Assembly (NCBI GenBank): GCA_021299715.1
Contig: JAJTEL010000001.1
Span: 3,397 to 67,396 of the forward strand
Reading direction: 5' to 3'
Source: Ilumatobacteraceae bacterium
Lineage (GTDB): Bacteria; Actinomycetota; Acidimicrobiia; Acidimicrobiales; Ilumatobacteraceae
Length of the DNA: 64,000 nucleotides
Position 1 is the first letter of the stretch; each line of letters begins with the position of its first letter. Made by a program: the position numbers and the translations under genes. The notes under the pieces were generated by a model. The model was not told where the DNA came from. It was given only the letters and a program-made list of their open reading frames with translations, and searched no databases. Positions 1,509 to 9,444 of the stretch are shown piece after piece.

Positions 1509-2744
1509 TTAGGCGGAAGGCGGTGCCTCTGGTGTTGGCGCATCGCCAGCGGGTGCTGCATCGGCGGCTGGCTCTGGTGCAGGAGCCTTCTTCTTCAGTG
1601 CAGGTGTTCCCACCTTTACTGTTGTCTCGGCCCAATCTGGCCAACGACGACGGCTGACAATAGACAACGTGCGCAACAACTTCATTGCTACTTCGTCATC
1701 TTGTGCGGGGCGAGATTCAATAACGCCTTCTTTGATCATTCGCTCAATGACTTCAACACCCAACTTCGTTCGAACAATGGTGAGTGTCCAGTCGTTGTCT
1801 TTGCCAATACCACCGGTGGAGATGTCGGCGTGCTCTGCGGCGAAGTCTGGACAGTTCTTGCAGCCTTCGCGTGTCCACTGATGGCATTCCTTCAAATCGA
1901 TTTCGTGGAATGAACCATCTTTCATCCAGATTTGGAACGCGCCCTTGATGTTCATCTTCACCATGTCTTCTTTTTTCAAGCCGTACTTTGGCTCGAAGAG
2001 TTCAGAAAAGATTGCGTCGTCGAATGTTTTGCTGCAGAGAAGTCCAATGTTGAACTGGAATGGCTTCGAGACTTTGCCTGCTTTGCGATCCCACATCACA
2101 GGAGGCGACGACACTTGGCAACCCATACCAACGAGGGCCAATTTGGTGAGTCCTTTTTCTTTCGCTTCAGGAAGTGCCAGCGGATTTGCACAGTAGGTGT
2201 AGCGCGAACCGGCAGTAGCCAGCACTTCTTCTTTGGTTTGAACAAGAACGGGCTTTGCTTTCCACTTGTCATCGTCTTCTACTCCGCTGACGAGTGCGCC
2301 TTCGATGTAGTTGTTGTCAAGCAACCACGACAACATGGCCGTCACGAATCCACCGTCTTGACCCTTTTCATGCTGTGTCTTGTCGGTGGCGCGTGTGAGA
2401 AGAAGCTGTTCCCAAATGCCAGCCATCTCATCGTCTTCGCGATCACGACCAAAGAGGTGCTTGTTGGCAGCGGACTCCCACGTGCGGAATCGGGGGCACG
2501 CGCGCGTACACGTGGTGCACCCCTTTTCGCCATGGATGCAGTTGTCTAAGCCAAGCTCTTCCTCTAAGTGGAAGGGCTTGTACTTGCCTTCTTCGTGCTC
2601 ATACCCAATGACATCGTGTGGGCAGGTAACAACGCAACCTGCACACCCCGTGCACAAACCAGTGTTAATGACCTCTTCGTAGAGTTCTTTCCACTGCGCT
2701 GTCCAGCGCTCGGCCTTTGCGGGGGCATCGGGTGTCATCGTCAT
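1509..2744 (-). CDS. Coenzyme F420 hydrogenase/dehydrogenase beta subunit (FrhB/FdhB) family protein
   Basis: Predicted iron-sulfur flavoprotein of the FrhB family, whose members pass electrons between Fe-S clusters, FAD and often F420. The 411 residues hold an N-terminal ferredoxin motif CTGCAGCVVTC followed by CP (around residue 35) and a second cysteine cluster in CIHGEKGCTTCTRACP, enough for two 4Fe-4S clusters. FrhB N- and C-terminal domains follow (ATAGSRYTYCANPLALPEA; GLLCSKTF; CKNCPDF). The last 30 residues are an Ala/Pro/Lys-rich tail, unusual for the family. It starts 16 bp after the stop of glnK1 on the same strand, so it probably shares the amtB1-glnK1 transcript. Whether it uses F420, ferredoxin or another donor is unknown; a nitrogen-linked role is only inferred from position. 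Confidence 0.82.
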   Translation of the reverse strand: MTMTPDAPAKAERWTAQWKELYEEVINTGLCTGCAGCVVTCPHDVIGYEHEEGKYKPFHLEEELGLDNCIHGEKGCTTCTRACPRFRTWESAANKHLFGRDREDDEMAGIWEQLLLTRATDKTQHEKGQDGGFVTAMLSWLLDNNYIEGALVSGVEDDDKWKAKPVLVQTKEEVLATAGSRYTYCANPLALPEAKEKGLTKLALVGMGCQVSSPPVMWDRKAGKVSKPFQFNIGLLCSKTFDDAIFSELFEPKYGLKKEDMVKMNIKGAFQIWMKDGSFHEIDLKECHQWTREGCKNCPDFAAEHADISTGGIGKDNDWTLTIVRTKLGVEVIERMIKEGVIESRPAQDDEVAMKLLRTLSIVSRRRWPDWAETTVKVGTPALKKKAPAPEPAADAAPAGDAPTPEAPPSA

Positions 2745-2760
2745 ATGACGAGACTAGGGC

Positions 2761-3117
<357 letters not shown>

Positions 3118-3134: not shown

Positions 3135-4385
3135 TCACTGGTATGCAGATTCTGCATGCTGGCTTTGGTCGAGGCCGACGAGTTCATCTTCTGAACTGAC
3201 GCGCAGGCCAATTGTTGCATCGATTGCCTTGGCGATGATCCAGGTCACGATGAACGAGAACGCAATGGTGGCACCCAGTGCAACAAGCTGATCAATCAGC
3301 AAATCGGCGCCGCCACCAAAGAAGATTCCGTCAAATCCCAAGGCGTTCACCTTGGTGTCTGCGAAGAAACCAAGAAGGACGGCGCCAAGGATTCCACCAA
3401 CAAGGTGAACCGCGATGACATCCAAGCTGTCATCGAAACCGAACTTGGTCTTCAACGACAGAGCGAGGTAGCACACCACGCCAGCGATGAGCCCGATGAT
3501 GACCGGAGCAAATCCGCCGACGAAACCAGCACATGGTGTGATGGCGACAAGACCAGCAACAGCACCAGATGCTGCGCCCAACGTTGTTGCGTGACCTGCA
3601 CGCAACTTCTCAACCACGAGCCATCCGCACATTGCAGCGGCTGCAGCGAGGTGAGTGTTGACAAGTGCTTGTGCAGCAAGACCATTTGCACCAAGTGCTG
3701 ATCCGGCGTTGAATCCGAACCAACCGAACCACAAGATGCCTGTACCAAGAACAGTGAACGGCAAGTTATGTGGTGGCATTGCTTCGCGTGGCCAGCCCTT
3801 GCGATTACCAAGAACAAGAATGACTGCGAGTGCTGCTACACCGGCGTTGACGTGAATAACAGCGCCACCGGCAAAGTCGAGTGCACCACGCTTGAACAAC
3901 CATCCGTTCGGGCTAAACACCCAGTGCGCAACCGTGGGGTACACAACGACACCCCACACACCAATGAGAACTGCATACGCCGAGAACTTCAAACGGTCTG
4001 CAGTTGCACCAGTAATAAGCGCTGGTGTGATGACCGCGAACATCATTTGAAACGCGAAGAACACCATGATGGGAACAACCAGACCAAAGTCGCCGGTGTA
4101 ACCGGGAAGTTCAGCAATGGTTCCCAAATCTTTGAGGAAGAGGAAGTCGAAGTTGCCGATGTAGGCGCCGTCTCCACCGAATGCGAGTGAGAACCCAATG
4201 GCTGCCCACAACACACTGATAAGGCCCATGGCGAAGATGTTTTGCATCAACATTCCAAGAACGTTCTTCGAACGAACCATTCCTCCGTAGAAGAAGGCAA
4301 GGCCAGGGGTCATAAACGCCACAAGTGCGGTAGATACCAGAACCCACGCTGTGGCTCCGGAATCGATGGTTGCTGCTGACAGCAT
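3135..4385 (-). CDS. amtB: Ammonium transporter, AmtB family (copy 1)
   Basis: Inner-membrane ammonium channel that takes up NH4+/NH3 when nitrogen is scarce. The 416-residue protein begins with an 11-TM-type Amt core directly (AWVLVSTALVAFMTPGLAFF). It keeps the pore residues: Asp in LDFAGGAVIHV together with the first pore His, and the second pore His in DVIAVHLVGG. The ATG is preceded by an AGGAGA site. It is followed by glnK1. The 150 bp upstream carry a hairpin terminator for the preceding amtB2 and a GlnR-like box, so this gene seems to start its own nitrogen-controlled transcript. Confidence 0.95.
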   Translation of the reverse strand: MLSAATIDSGATAWVLVSTALVAFMTPGLAFFYGGMVRSKNVLGMLMQNIFAMGLISVLWAAIGFSLAFGGDGAYIGNFDFLFLKDLGTIAELPGYTGDFGLVVPIMVFFAFQMMFAVITPALITGATADRLKFSAYAVLIGVWGVVVYPTVAHWVFSPNGWLFKRGALDFAGGAVIHVNAGVAALAVILVLGNRKGWPREAMPPHNLPFTVLGTGILWFGWFGFNAGSALGANGLAAQALVNTHLAAAAAMCGWLVVEKLRAGHATTLGAASGAVAGLVAITPCAGFVGGFAPVIIGLIAGVVCYLALSLKTKFGFDDSLDVIAVHLVGGILGAVLLGFFADTKVNALGFDGIFFGGGADLLIDQLVALGATIAFSFIVTWIIAKAIDATIGLRVSSEDELVGLDQSQHAESAYQ

Positions 4386-4536: not shown

Positions 4537-6350
<1,814 letters not shown>

Positions 6351-6362
6351 GAGTTGGTAGGT

Positions 6363-6383
6363 GTGTGAACGCTGTGTAAACCG
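6363..6383. promoter_or_regulatory. Direct-repeat element, site 2 (GTGAAC-n5-GTAAAC)
   Basis: Two hexamers GTGAAC (6365-6370) and GTAAAC (6376-6381) are spaced 11 bp start to start, the geometry of OmpR/PhoB-family half-sites. The 21-bp block matches the block at 9371-9391 at 17 of 21 positions. It sits directly behind the antiporter-GlnD stop codon and upstream of glnK2. I infer a shared site for the winged-helix protein encoded at 9044-9328. Confidence 0.45.
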
Positions 6384-9047
6384 CTACGACAAAAGTGCAT
6401 TCACACGGGCAAGTGCGCTGTCGCTGATCTTTCGCCCATGACGCGTCGATACTTCAAACCTGTCAGCGACAGCACCATCAGATGTGGTGATTCGCGCGTG
6501 ATGAACACTGATTTTTGATCGTGCAAACGCGGCTGCAACTGCTTGGATGAGCCCAGGCTGGTCTGTGCCCGTCACAGTCACCACGCTGTGCCACGGATGG
6601 GCGTCGTTGTCAAGAGTGAACGAGAGCGTGTTATGCGCACCACGCATTAAACGGCGCGGGTCGTCAATTCTCTTGCGGAGTCGTCGCTCTAGTTCATACG
6701 ACAATTGAGGTGCTTGAGGTCGTTGCTCACTACGCGCAATGAATGAGTCGAGCACGGCGCCGTCGGGCCATGTTGCAAGATCGGCATTCATAATTTCCAA
6801 GCCGCGTTCTGCCAAGACCGCGCAGATACGTGCAAGCAATCCGCGCATGTCGCGCGTAGCAATGTCTATTTCCCATTCGTTTGGAACGGAAGTGGGGTAC
6901 ACGCCAACGCGAACTTGGCGCGGCCGAGGCGCAGGCTCGACCAATGTTGCATGTCGAACGAGTACTTCTGGTTCGTGTGCCAGTAGATACACAGCAGCCG
7001 CGTGACGGAGACGTTCAATGACGAGCGGATCTGTCGTGAGGGCAATTGCATCACGGCGACGAACTTCAACCAGTGAGTTTTCGGCGCCTTCAATAAGTTC
7101 AGGGTGCGCCAGAAGGCCCTGCACGCTTGTGGTGATGTCAATAAGCACGGAGAATTGCCAGTCCTGAAGATTTCCTCGCGCTTCGGTCAGCATTCTGCAG
7201 CGTTCCACCATGAGTGGGGTTTCAAGAAAACCTGCAAGTTGCGCCAATACTCGGTTATTGGGTTCGTACGGTTCAGTTGTACACGCAGCATGCAATAAAG
7301 CAGACGCAGAGAGAAGCGCTCGTGTCTCGTTACGGACCGAGTCATCGAGAGTTAGTCGATCAAGAACTGGTGTGGCATCGCCGGCATCGGAGAAATCGCT
7401 AATGAATGCAGCAAGGATGAGAGAAGCATCAGATGGCGCAAGTCTGCTCGTTGACTTTCGTAAGGCTTCTACTACGGGTGTCTGTGCAAGATGAGTTGGG
7501 TCTAGTTCGGTGGCATCTCCGCGTCGTGCATGAAGAGCGTGTGCAACTTCTGGAAGAGCACGGTCTAAAACATTGGTGACATCAAGGAAGCGCCACGAGC
7601 GGCCGTTTCCACGTGCAAGGAGATCGAGCAACAATTCAGTGGAGTGTTCATTCCATGAAAGTGGCATGTTTCTCTGTGCATGCATCCAGTCGAGAAGTGC
7701 AGCGTTTGGCTGTGCGTTCCCTGCATGTATTGCTGATTCAAGCGCAAGCGGAAGTATGAGTTCTGCTGGTGGGACTCCATGAAGTTGCACTTCGTTGTTG
7801 ATCACGCGAATCCAGCCGCCGACTGGTTCATCGGTGACGTTGAGAACAGGCTCGTTGTCGGCTGAAATGTCGTTTCGCTGAATTCGCCAGCGCAGTAACG
7901 GCGGTGTCACCACCGTGGTGACCAGCACCATCAGTAGTACCACTGCGTACAGGTCGTCTTTAAAGACTCCGACAGACACTCCAATAGAAGCGAAAATAAG
8001 ACCTACTTCGCCACGCGGAACCATTCCGATACCAATGACCAACTTGTCGGTGTTGGTGCCTATGGCGCCAACCGCTGCCAACATTTTTCCGGCAATGGCA
8101 ATCGCAGACAAAATGCCGGCGACAATCAACACGTGACCATCGAAGAATTTTGTGACATCGGTGTCGATACCGATTTGCATGAAGAAGACCGGGATAAAGA
8201 TGCTTCCCAGTACTGCAAAATCACGCGCGATGCGATCGTGGTGTTCCGTGCGTGCCAACGCCGTGCCAGCAACGAATGCGCCGATGATTGGTGCAAGCTT
8301 TGCGCCACTGGCAGCGGCGGAGAATGCAAACGTGATTCCGGCGGCGACAACGCCCACCGTTGCTGGCGATGTTGCTCGGACACCTACCCATTTCAGAATT
8401 CGTGGAAGAACAATCAGGCCAATTCCGCCAGCGATAACAAGGAAGCCAACAGCAAGACCGATGGTGCTGATGAGGCCTGCAACATCAATCGAACCTTGTT
8501 CTACAACGCGAGTGACAACGGTGAGAATGATGAGCCCCAGCACATCGTCGGCAACGGCTGCTCCAAGAACAATGCGGGCTTCGGTGGACGCCAACGCTTT
8601 CAGGTCTCCGAACACGCGTGCTGTGATTCCAACGCTGGTGGCGGCAAGCGCGGCGCCCAAGAACAACGACGCGTTGAGTGACTCACCCAACAAAGAGCCT
8701 GCGGCAATTCCCGTTGACATGGGTAAAGCCACACCAAGAATGGCCACAATCATGGATGCGCGACCTACTCGACGAAGTTCGTTGAGGTCCATTTCCAAGC
8801 CAACTTCGGCAAGAAGAACGATGACACCTACTTCGGCAAGGATTCGCAATGCATCGCTTGGTTCAACAAGGCCAAGTGCAGATGGACCAATGAGAATGCC
8901 CGCAACAATTTCGCCCAGAACAGCCGGAATGCGAACTCGTTCACACAGCTCTGATGCAATCTTTGCAACAACGAGGACGAGAGCAAGCGTGGTGAAGATC
9001 TGACCGAAGTCCACCCCTTGCGCGGCGGCGATAACCACGGAACTCAC
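6384..9047 (-). CDS. CPA2 cation/proton antiporter fused to GlnD C-terminal module (degenerate HD + two ACT domains)
   Basis: An 887-residue fusion. Residues about 15-390 form a CPA2 (Kef/NapA-type) antiporter with the ion-binding pair AVADDVLG (Asp167-Asp168) and the GMVPRGEVGL signature (341-350). Residues about 400-700 align in pattern with the region of GlnD after its nucleotidyltransferase domain, but the HD motif has become ISDFSDAGD (549-557), so the metal-binding HDIGK residues are lost. Two ACT domains follow (about 713-771, NEWEIDIATRDMRGLLARI; and 819-867, TGTDQPGLIQAV), typical of the glutamine-sensing end of GlnD. The GlnD nucleotidyltransferase is absent. Start GTG 9047 overlaps the stop of the winged-helix gene (GTGA). 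The adjacent glnK2-amtB2 places it where glnD often lies. I infer an antiporter gated by glutamine; it should not modify PII itself. Confidence 0.8.
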   Translation of the reverse strand: MSSVVIAAAQGVDFGQIFTTLALVLVVAKIASELCERVRIPAVLGEIVAGILIGPSALGLVEPSDALRILAEVGVIVLLAEVGLEMDLNELRRVGRASMIVAILGVALPMSTGIAAGSLLGESLNASLFLGAALAATSVGITARVFGDLKALASTEARIVLGAAVADDVLGLIILTVVTRVVEQGSIDVAGLISTIGLAVGFLVIAGGIGLIVLPRILKWVGVRATSPATVGVVAAGITFAFSAAASGAKLAPIIGAFVAGTALARTEHHDRIARDFAVLGSIFIPVFFMQIGIDTDVTKFFDGHVLIVAGILSAIAIAGKMLAAVGAIGTNTDKLVIGIGMVPRGEVGLIFASIGVSVGVFKDDLYAVVLLMVLVTTVVTPPLLRWRIQRNDISADNEPVLNVTDEPVGGWIRVINNEVQLHGVPPAELILPLALESAIHAGNAQPNAALLDWMHAQRNMPLSWNEHSTELLLDLLARGNGRSWRFLDVTNVLDRALPEVAHALHARRGDATELDPTHLAQTPVVEALRKSTSRLAPSDASLILAAFISDFSDAGDATPVLDRLTLDDSVRNETRALLSASALLHAACTTEPYEPNNRVLAQLAGFLETPLMVERCRMLTEARGNLQDWQFSVLIDITTSVQGLLAHPELIEGAENSLVEVRRRDAIALTTDPLVIERLRHAAAVYLLAHEPEVLVRHATLVEPAPRPRQVRVGVYPTSVPNEWEIDIATRDMRGLLARICAVLAERGLEIMNADLATWPDGAVLDSFIARSEQRPQAPQLSYELERRLRKRIDDPRRLMRGAHNTLSFTLDNDAHPWHSVVTVTGTDQPGLIQAVAAAFARSKISVHHARITTSDGAVADRFEVSTRHGRKISDSALARVNALLS

Positions 9048-9328
9048 GGCTGTATGTCTACCTGAAGACCTAAGAGTTCTTTCGCTGAAATAAGCCCACT
9101 GTCTGTGAGAATCCACCCGCGTTGGCGCACCGTGCGGACGGAGTCTTTGCCAAGTGCACGACGCAATATGACTATGGATACGTCGGCGCGTCGAGGGGTG
9201 GTGCTTTCCAGTCCTGTCTTTCGCATGAGAGTGTCTCGGCTGCACACTCGTCCCGCGTGCTCTATCAGTACCTGCAAGATGCGTAGATCTGCCGAACCTG
9301 GTTCGAGGGGGCTGGGACGCTCTGCCAT
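9044..9328 (-). CDS. Orphan winged-helix DNA-binding protein (OmpR/PhoB C-terminal type)
   Basis: A 94-residue protein made almost only of the trans_reg_C winged-helix fold: ILQVLIEHAGRVCSRDTLMR near residue 20, then DVSIVILRRALG and VRTVRQRGWIL, the recognition helix and wing. There is no receiver domain. I start at ATG 9328 because it opens just before the fold; the frame extends to 9403 without similarity. Its stop overlaps the GTG of the antiporter-GlnD gene by 4 bp (GTGA), so both are made together. A perfect 8-bp inverted repeat and an 11-bp-phased direct repeat lie upstream. It likely controls its own operon and perhaps glnK2-amtB2; ligand or trigger is unknown. Confidence 0.72.
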   Translation of the reverse strand: MAERPSPLEPGSADLRILQVLIEHAGRVCSRDTLMRKTGLESTTPRRADVSIVILRRALGKDSVRTVRQRGWILTDSGLISAKELLGLQVDIQP

Positions 9329-9370
9329 GGACCCACCGTACGGTGGCAATTTTTCAGGCCTGTTCGCCCC

Positions 9371-9399
9371 CTGTGAACGGTGTGTGAACGGACACACCG
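9371..9399. promoter_or_regulatory. Direct repeat GTGAACGG x2 with overlapping inverted repeat between winged-helix gene and acyl-CoA dehydrogenase
   Basis: GTGAACGG occurs at 9373-9380 and 9384-9391, 11 bp apart. CGGTGTGT (9378-9385) and ACACACCG (9392-9399) form a perfect inverted repeat with a 6-bp spacer. The block 9371-9391 is nearly the same as 6363-6383 upstream of glnK2. Its place between divergent genes and its OmpR-like 11-bp phasing suggest an operator for the adjacent winged-helix protein. Confidence 0.5.
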
Positions 9400-9444
9400 C
9401 CACAATGCGTGGAATCTGCCAGAAACCCGACAGAATCGGAAGCC

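Follow-up and report, generated by a model that had tools for sequence, protein, structure and literature searches.

The question raised by this locus is why the regulatory half of GlnD, the enzyme known to report glutamine through its modification of PII (PMC4285133), is found joined to a membrane antiporter next to genes for ammonium transport. The locus lies in a stretch of 64,000 nucleotides, here called the window, of an Ilumatobacteraceae bacterium (assembly GCA_021299715.1, contig JAJTEL010000001.1, positions 3,397 to 67,396). In it a single open frame of 887 residues runs from 9047 to 6384 on the minus strand, the strand being a correction to an initial annotation made from the sequence. 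The answer that we favour, with somewhat more confidence than doubt, is that it encodes a NapA-type, probably electrogenic Na+/H+ antiporter that is gated by a cytoplasmic pseudo-enzyme module derived from GlnD and is made together with Amt2, GlnK2 and glutamine synthetase. The parts of the fusion are as follows.

6384 to 9047, minus strand: fusion protein, NapA-type antiporter plus GlnD-derived sensory module, 887 amino acids, GTG start, full-length in relatives
7872 to 9047, minus strand: antiporter domain, residues 1 to 392, NapA fold (Pfam PF00999; PDB 4bwz, 5bz2)
6933 to 7862, minus strand: GlnD-like linker and degenerate HD region, residues 396 to 705 (hhalign against canonical GlnD; metal ligands lost)
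6732 to 6911, minus strand: ACT1, residues about 713 to 772, DxxG loop D733/G736 (Pfam and module alignment)
6393 to 6587, minus strand: ACT2, residues about 821 to 885, DxxG loop D829/G832 (Pfam and module alignment)

The three motifs AVADDVLG, GMVPRGEVGL and ISDFSDAGD that the initial annotation had read from an uninterrupted frame were all present, and its claim that a CPA2 antiporter and the region of GlnD behind the nucleotidyltransferase share this frame was borne out by Pfam and by profile-profile comparison. The Na_H_Exchanger model matched residues 24 to 385 (E 8.6e-59, 199.7 bits against a cut-off of 26.2) and Pfam placed two ACT stretches in the tail. When the tail was checked against family profiles, as had been proposed, TIGR01693 and ACT gave matches and the Pfam HD and GlnD_UR_UTase models gave none, either in the scan of the fusion or in that of the module set. 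TIGR01693 (UTase_glnD, NCBIfam) matched residues 629 to 884 with an E of 8.4e-22, and the score of 77.2 bits against the curated cut-off of 519.4 places the fusion below the GlnD equivalog threshold; all 41 aligned modules matched this model at E <= 0.001 and, like the fusion, far below the cut-off. A profile of 19 modules and a profile of 17 canonical GlnDs, the latter from the same order and class, were colinear over 425 columns with a probability of 100 and an E of 1.9e-39, and as the match spans from just after the nucleotidyltransferase to the C-terminus, the nucleotidyltransferase domain is lacking in the fusion. The part in front of the ACT domains matched GlnD by itself, with an E of 1.2e-15 when 19 modules were used (hhalign) and 8.9e-20 when 41 were used, whereas nine controls, eight column shuffles and one reversal, reached at best 0.033. 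Because this match persists, the tail includes the linker and the HD region besides the ACT pair, and it is the sequence profiles that support the HD relation. A generic RCK/TrkA tail, an alternative that the initial annotation had itself raised, was excluded, no such family being matched in the Pfam scan at E <= 1, and the C-terminal half is, judged by these comparisons, derived from GlnD.

What this half has kept and what it has lost could be seen when the modules were aligned with the canonical GlnDs. With the HD ligands numbered as in the GlnD of the same genome (L042:7831-10083), H395, H423, D424, H465 and D506 are present in 17 of 17 canonical GlnDs, whereas among the 41 modules H395 is kept in none, H423 in 1, D424 in 33, H465 in 1 and D506 in 1, and the complete metal set in none. 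The loops of the ACT domains are kept, D733 in 40 and G736 in 37 of the 41 for ACT1 and both D829 and G832 in 40 for ACT2, and Pfam found ACT in 19 of 19 modules. The HD metal site, noted as decayed in the initial annotation, is degraded in all 41 modules, and the two ACT ligand loops are mostly kept. The module resembles a pseudo-enzyme whose sensor has been preserved, and with the nucleotidyltransferase absent and the HD ligands lost it should no longer modify PII.

The full-length fusion was found in 23 of 61 related genomes, the one studied here included: 17 of the same genus, 2 of the same family and 4 of other families. A near-whole module (E <= 1e-75) was present in 27 of 395 genomes of a class sample, and in a phylum sample of 396 genomes the fusion was found in two genomes of one family outside the class; both samples were drawn from larger groups and most of their genomes are incomplete. 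Beyond the phylum the coverage was that of a peptide-pattern scan, in which the sole outside match was a plain antiporter (L014). Of the weaker module matches, those that were read were GlnDs (L126-L129, L132-L134 and L137-L141 in the class, where L140 is a contig-end piece, and L162-L164 in the phylum). Among the 48 module loci that were read for context, antiporter and module were in one frame in 45, belonging to 13 families and two classes; of the other three, G027 and G158 are cut by contig ends before any antiporter and G169 has a stop between the halves. That stop is the one thing in a relative that would fit an artefact of assembly or annotation joining two genes, for which nothing was found at the locus itself, but the same junction recurs in genomes of 13 families, many of them, to judge by their record titles, from separate studies. 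This and the recurrence in 23 of the 61 genomes overturn the reservation on this point in the initial annotation, and we regard the chance of an artefact as negligible. Two unusual copies were also seen: G477, from outside the class, has a module-like frame of 535 residues (L161:8533-10137) with no recognisable antiporter in the 18 kb read, possibly a free-standing module, and G017 has a second, diverged copy of antiporter and module (L057:422-2656), at about 38 to 52% in the matched parts and with a stop between the halves.

In eight genomes of the genus the antiporter was unfused: its frame has 394 to 435 residues and is not followed by a module. In an antiporter tree of 35 rows, from which G024 (its antiporter is cut by a contig end) and other contig-end pieces were excluded and in which the root serves for drawing only, there were five fused/unfused changes, forced by well-supported branches, and the deeper rows were all fused. 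The simplest reading of this tree is five losses of the module. Since the antiporter occurs without the module within the genus, and the changes are best read as losses, the module looks like a regulatory add-on to the antiporter. The same five changes in the tree, with the eight genomes that do without the module and three class members that retain only its front part, could also be taken to mean that the module senses nothing and is kept by inertia as a relic or as a structural tail, and that its linkage to amt2 is operon hitch-hiking. Against this, the module has been kept in 13 families, its ACT loops are conserved despite the decay of the HD ligands, and the fusion operon has a box in common with nitrogen genes, and we consider a relic very improbable.

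For the antiporter half the nearest relative of solved structure is NapA of Thermus (PDB 4bwz, E 5.5e-62), and the predicted antiporter aligned to NapA (5bz2) over 381 columns with a TM of 0.89 on the target (Foldseek). D167, D168 and K321 align with the aspartate pair and the lysine of NapA and, like R345 and E347, do not vary among the 23 fusions; the lysine of NapA is numbered as in PMC6181914. The stretch at the helix break reads ATSV in 22 of the 23 and ATSI in one (valine at position 139 in 22, isoleucine in 1). The hallmarks of Kef are missing, the motif being DD and not QD in 23 of 23 and RCK/TrkA_N not being matched in the Pfam scan at E <= 1. It has been reported that DD with the lysine marks the electrogenic type and that the fourth position of the helix break is nonpolar in Na+-selective clades (PMC6181914), and that KefC has a QD motif and a threonine at the helix break (PMC11150392). 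Because DD, the lysine and ATSV/ATSI fit the first of these rules, the antiporter is predicted to be probably of the electrogenic Na+/H+ type and not a Kef-type K+ exchanger. The choice between Na+/H+ and K+/H+ exchange that the initial annotation had left would thereby be narrowed to the former.

It could also be that the substrate of the exchanger is ammonium, or K+/NH4+, and that NH4+ is vented for H+ at high glutamine in a safety cycle with Amt2. CPA2 antiporters that move ammonium, such as AmhT of Bacillus, are known; a literature search on AmhT gave nothing usable. The old and tight link to amt2 and the box in common with glutamine synthetase would both suit such a cycle, but in 23 of 23 fusions DD, the lysine and ATSV/ATSI are as in the Na+-type NapA (PMC6181914), and the K+ exchanger KefC differs from them in QD and the threonine at the helix break (PMC11150392), so that we think ammonium an improbable substrate.

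The genes downstream of the fusion connect it to ammonium transport.

5888 to 6301, minus strand: glnK2 (PII; Pfam P-II, E 2.6e-32), with GTG at 6226 as its likely start and with the T-loop tyrosines in its sequence
4537 to 5898, minus strand: amt2, ammonium transporter; in other families it is this type that goes with the fusion (Pfam E 4.7e-99)
3135 to 4385, minus strand: amt1, ammonium transporter; its type goes with canonical glnD in a number of relatives' genomes (Pfam E 3.2e-123)
2761 to 3099, minus strand: glnK1 (PII; Pfam E 1.3e-32)
1509 to 2744, minus strand: FrhB/FdhB-like iron-sulfur protein (Pfam FrhB_FdhB_C, E 1.3e-31)

Five of the 48 module loci were unreadable and were set aside, and in 35 of the 43 readable ones, from 13 families, an amt gene was present within 6 kb and then always within 0.7 kb (33 of 40 without G027, G158 and G169), which supports the link to ammonium transport drawn in the initial annotation. 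Outside the genus the amt beside the module was closest to amt2 in 18 of 18 cases, at 63 to 84% in 15 and at lower values in G032 (42%), G475 (53%) and G461 (46%). Within the genus the neighbouring amt was mostly amt2 at >= 75%; G003 and G027 have amt1, and G015, G026 and G029 have a third kind of about 42%. An amt2 orthologue (E <= 1e-120) was found in 20 of the 27 genomes with a near-whole module and in 30 of the 368 others (Fisher p 1e-14, kinship not corrected). The link of the fusion to ammonium transport is old. The FrhB/FdhB-like gene is the last gene of the cluster wherever contigs of the genus extend that far, and it remains next to the fusion or antiporter also at loci from which amt and glnK are gone (L063, L050, L011). 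Where the antiporter frame ends in the front part of the module, at three loci (L130, L131 and L135 in G227, G162 and G144), that of G162 adjoins amt2. Three of the eight fusions without amt (L109, L115 and L118, from families f56 and f61) adjoin hydantoinase/oxoprolinase A genes, perhaps another link to nitrogen through 5-oxoproline; for this count the neighbours were scanned for 10 proteins.

Within the genus 15 of the 16 readable fused loci have glnK2 next to the gene, against 2 of the 8 unfused loci (p 0.0013, kinship not corrected); one unfused locus, G011, has glnK2 together with a different amt (43%). This association, and the fact that the known substrate of GlnD is PII (PMC4285133), would also fit a module that is chiefly a docking platform for PII, on which GlnK2 through its ATP/ADP/2-oxoglutarate state, and not glutamine, gates the antiporter as GlnK gates AmtB. 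But at fusions that adjoin amt2 in other families, for example in G044, G374, G039, G109 and G114, no PII gene was found within 6 kb in the stretch read, and conserved ligand loops in the ACT domains would be superfluous for a mere platform. Docking as the main role seems rather unlikely to us, and it overlaps with the explanation that we prefer, which allows for both glutamine and PII.

Upstream the fusion follows a small regulatory gene, and two copies of a 17-nucleotide box lie at the locus.

9044 to 9403, minus strand: winged-helix gene with a DNA-binding domain of OmpR/PhoB type and no receiver (Trans_reg_C, E 3.4e-8), likely start ATG at 9328
9373 to 9389, minus strand: promoter box GTTCACACACCGTTCAC, upstream of the winged-helix/fusion operon
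6365 to 6381, minus strand: promoter box GTTTACACAGCGTTCAC, between the fusion and glnK2

The box has the tight form GTTYACACASCGTTCAC and the pattern AC-n9-AC. At <=1 mismatch GTTYACACASCGTTCAC occurs at three sites only in the assembled genome, which is 93% complete, and these precede the winged-helix/fusion operon, glnK2-amt2 and glutamine synthetase; as the form was drawn from the sites of this genome, its hits there are partly circular, and those in relatives less so. In 21 genomes there were 25 sites at <=1 mismatch, in 13 of the genomes, against 1 for the reversed control pattern, and 24 of the 25 were at the same three places: 8 at glutamine synthetase, 6 at glnK2 and 10 at the winged-helix gene or the antiporter. 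The remaining site, at a contig end, was not readable. Among the sites at glutamine synthetase, two belong to genomes of other families (G039, G042). A more general form of the box, GTTCAC-n5-GTTCAC, was set aside and the tighter one used because its genome count at <=1 mismatch, 22, was little above the control, 17, and because two of its three exact sites lie elsewhere. Those two (L166, L167; G000:C13) adjoin a PBP_like_2 gene and a gene for a BPD_transp_1 permease, both possibly of the pst set, which hints that in that place a similar box may serve a related regulator. The GTTCAC repeat was found, with 0 or 1 mismatch, before the fusion or antiporter at 20 of 44 loci, of which 19 are in family f1 and one (G047) is outside it, so that control by the box would be mostly a trait of this family. 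For GlnR, which regulates nitrogen genes in Mycobacterium smegmatis, an AC/T-n9-AC box has been reported (PMC3662644), and the box upstream of the nitrogen genes has this form in this genome as in relatives. Because the box is common to the fusion operon and glutamine synthetase, it suggests that in the genus the fusion operon may belong to a nitrogen regulon.

The stop of the winged-helix gene overlaps the GTG start of the fusion (GTGA). Its relatives, at E 2.1e-8 or better with a model built partly from loci that were later searched with it, are upstream of 30 of 44 loci, 26 fused and 4 unfused, and they reach other families and one genome outside the class; relatives are seen, for example, at L005, L009, L061, L112 and L160. 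Of the four Trans_reg_C matches in the genome only this gene, a frame of 135 residues, is too short for a receiver, and its product is possibly the operon's own regulator. G025 and G047 have the box although the winged-helix gene is missing, and so, with two mismatches, do G004 and G022; what binds the box may therefore be a regulator other than the winged-helix protein.

The fusion does not replace GlnD. In actinobacteria the operon order amtB-glnK-glnD has been described (PMC4285133), and the order here is winged-helix gene, fusion, glnK2, amt2, amt1, glnK1 and FrhB-like gene. The view of the initial annotation that the fusion sits in the glnD slot did not hold, since in this order the place of glnD is taken by the FrhB-like gene and an intact glnD is found elsewhere in the genome. 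That glnD is a frame of 786 residues above the TIGR01693 family cut-off, and no amt or glnK was found in the 18 kb read around it. Because of it, the fusion as a replacement of GlnD was rejected for this genome, where it is an addition and not a stand-in. In G036 (L063, 98% complete) and G053 (L059, 96%) the best TIGR01693 match is the fusion itself, and a true GlnD may be lacking there. In several fusion genomes, among them G044, G173, G475 and G461, canonical glnD has amt1 and glnK as neighbours, and in G374, G399 and G173 the fusion and canonical glnD are <4 kb apart. This proximity suggests that the module arose by duplication of glnD at an amt-glnK-glnD locus.

How such a protein would work can be put as follows. 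GlnD responds to glutamine (PMC4285133), and in KefC a cytosolic C-terminal domain gates the exchanger (PMC11150392). In the fusion, the module without the modifying nucleotidyltransferase and the de-modifying HD active site would retain two ACT domains that are expected to bind glutamine, and GlnK2 would perhaps also dock on the degenerate HD region. In the genus the fusion would be made with Amt2-GlnK2 and glutamine synthetase under one nitrogen-response box, and ion/proton exchange might in this way be tuned to the nitrogen status during ammonium import and assimilation. The sequence itself shows the architecture, the homology, the loss of the HD ligands, the kept ACT loops, the conservation, the linkage to amt2, the box in common and the antiporter without the module; the ligand, the sign of the gating, the ion and its direction, the contact with GlnK2 or Amt2 and the function of the box in nitrogen control are inferred. 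That GlnD's regulatory half now serves to switch an ion exchanger under the gating of glutamine and/or PII, and that together with Amt2 it makes up an ammonium/ion circuit whose production and tuning go along with glutamine synthetase, is put forward tentatively, at slightly less than an even chance.

Several observations weigh against this explanation. A Na+/2H+ antiporter would not offer an obvious offset of the acid or charge load of ammonium uptake. No amt was found within 6 kb at 8 of the 43 readable module loci, including all four readable ones of family f61; G019 belongs to an unfused lineage and has retained glnK2 and amt2, and G003 is fused without glnK2 and amt2 beside the fusion. 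In G227, G144 and G162 of the class the antiporter frame stops in the front part of the module and has no ACT. The winged-helix gene was not found in nine fused loci with full upstream sequence (in G026 the upstream sequence is too short), the box at <=1 mismatch was not found in 8 of the 21 genomes, GTTYACACASCGTTCAC at <=3 mismatches was no commoner than the control (26 vs 30), and outside family f1 the box, with 0 or 1 mismatch, was before the fusion in G047 only. As for structure prediction, the full-length model had a pLDDT of 80 and a pTM of 0.47, as a monomer prediction that carries no docking information, and a Foldseek search with the module-only model (pLDDT 86.6, pTM 0.59) gave mainly ACT proteins with a best E of 2.6e-3 and no HD fold.

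When the fusion is compared with known systems each part has a counterpart. It shares with GlnD the linker, the HD-like region and two ACT domains, colinear over the profile columns given above, and differs from it in having a membrane antiporter instead of the nucleotidyltransferase, in the loss of the HD metal set in 41 of 41 modules and in coexisting with a true GlnD in the genome. With NapA of Thermus thermophilus (PDB 4bwz/5bz2) it has the fold, DD with the lysine and the helix-break ATSV in common, and unlike NapA it bears a cytoplasmic tail of about 490 residues. KefC is likewise a CPA2 exchanger with a C-terminal cytosolic regulatory domain, which in KefC gates transport (PMC11150392), but Kef has an RCK domain and QD whereas the fusion has a GlnD-like tail and DD. 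In AmtB-GlnK and SbtA-SbtB a membrane transporter is under a cytosolic protein of nitrogen or carbon status (PMC10710835); there the regulator is a separate PII protein, whereas the fusion has an ACT/pseudo-HD module built in. The GlnR-controlled amtB-glnK-glnD operon also has amt and glnK behind an AC/T-n9-AC box (PMC3662644; order in PMC4285133), but here the GlnD-like part is fused to the antiporter and paired with amt2, and the operon itself encodes a winged-helix protein that has no receiver. Sensor domains fused to transporters are already known as a kind; a GlnD-derived one on an antiporter was not found described in a search among open-licence papers.

The fusion was found in a lineage of free-living actinobacteria and suggests that these cells tie ion exchange to nitrogen supply. 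If this is true, the sensing half of GlnD, stripped of both activities, would report directly to an ion exchanger, and a pseudo-enzyme sensor would control membrane energetics instead of PII modification. Nitrogen status and ion/proton balance would then be directly linked, and electrogenic ammonium uptake raises the question of such a link. With the natural variants, which are fused, unfused or cut short and have or lack glnK2-amt2, the regulatory role can be put to the test, and how the ACT domains of GlnD read glutamine would be simpler to study in the isolated module.

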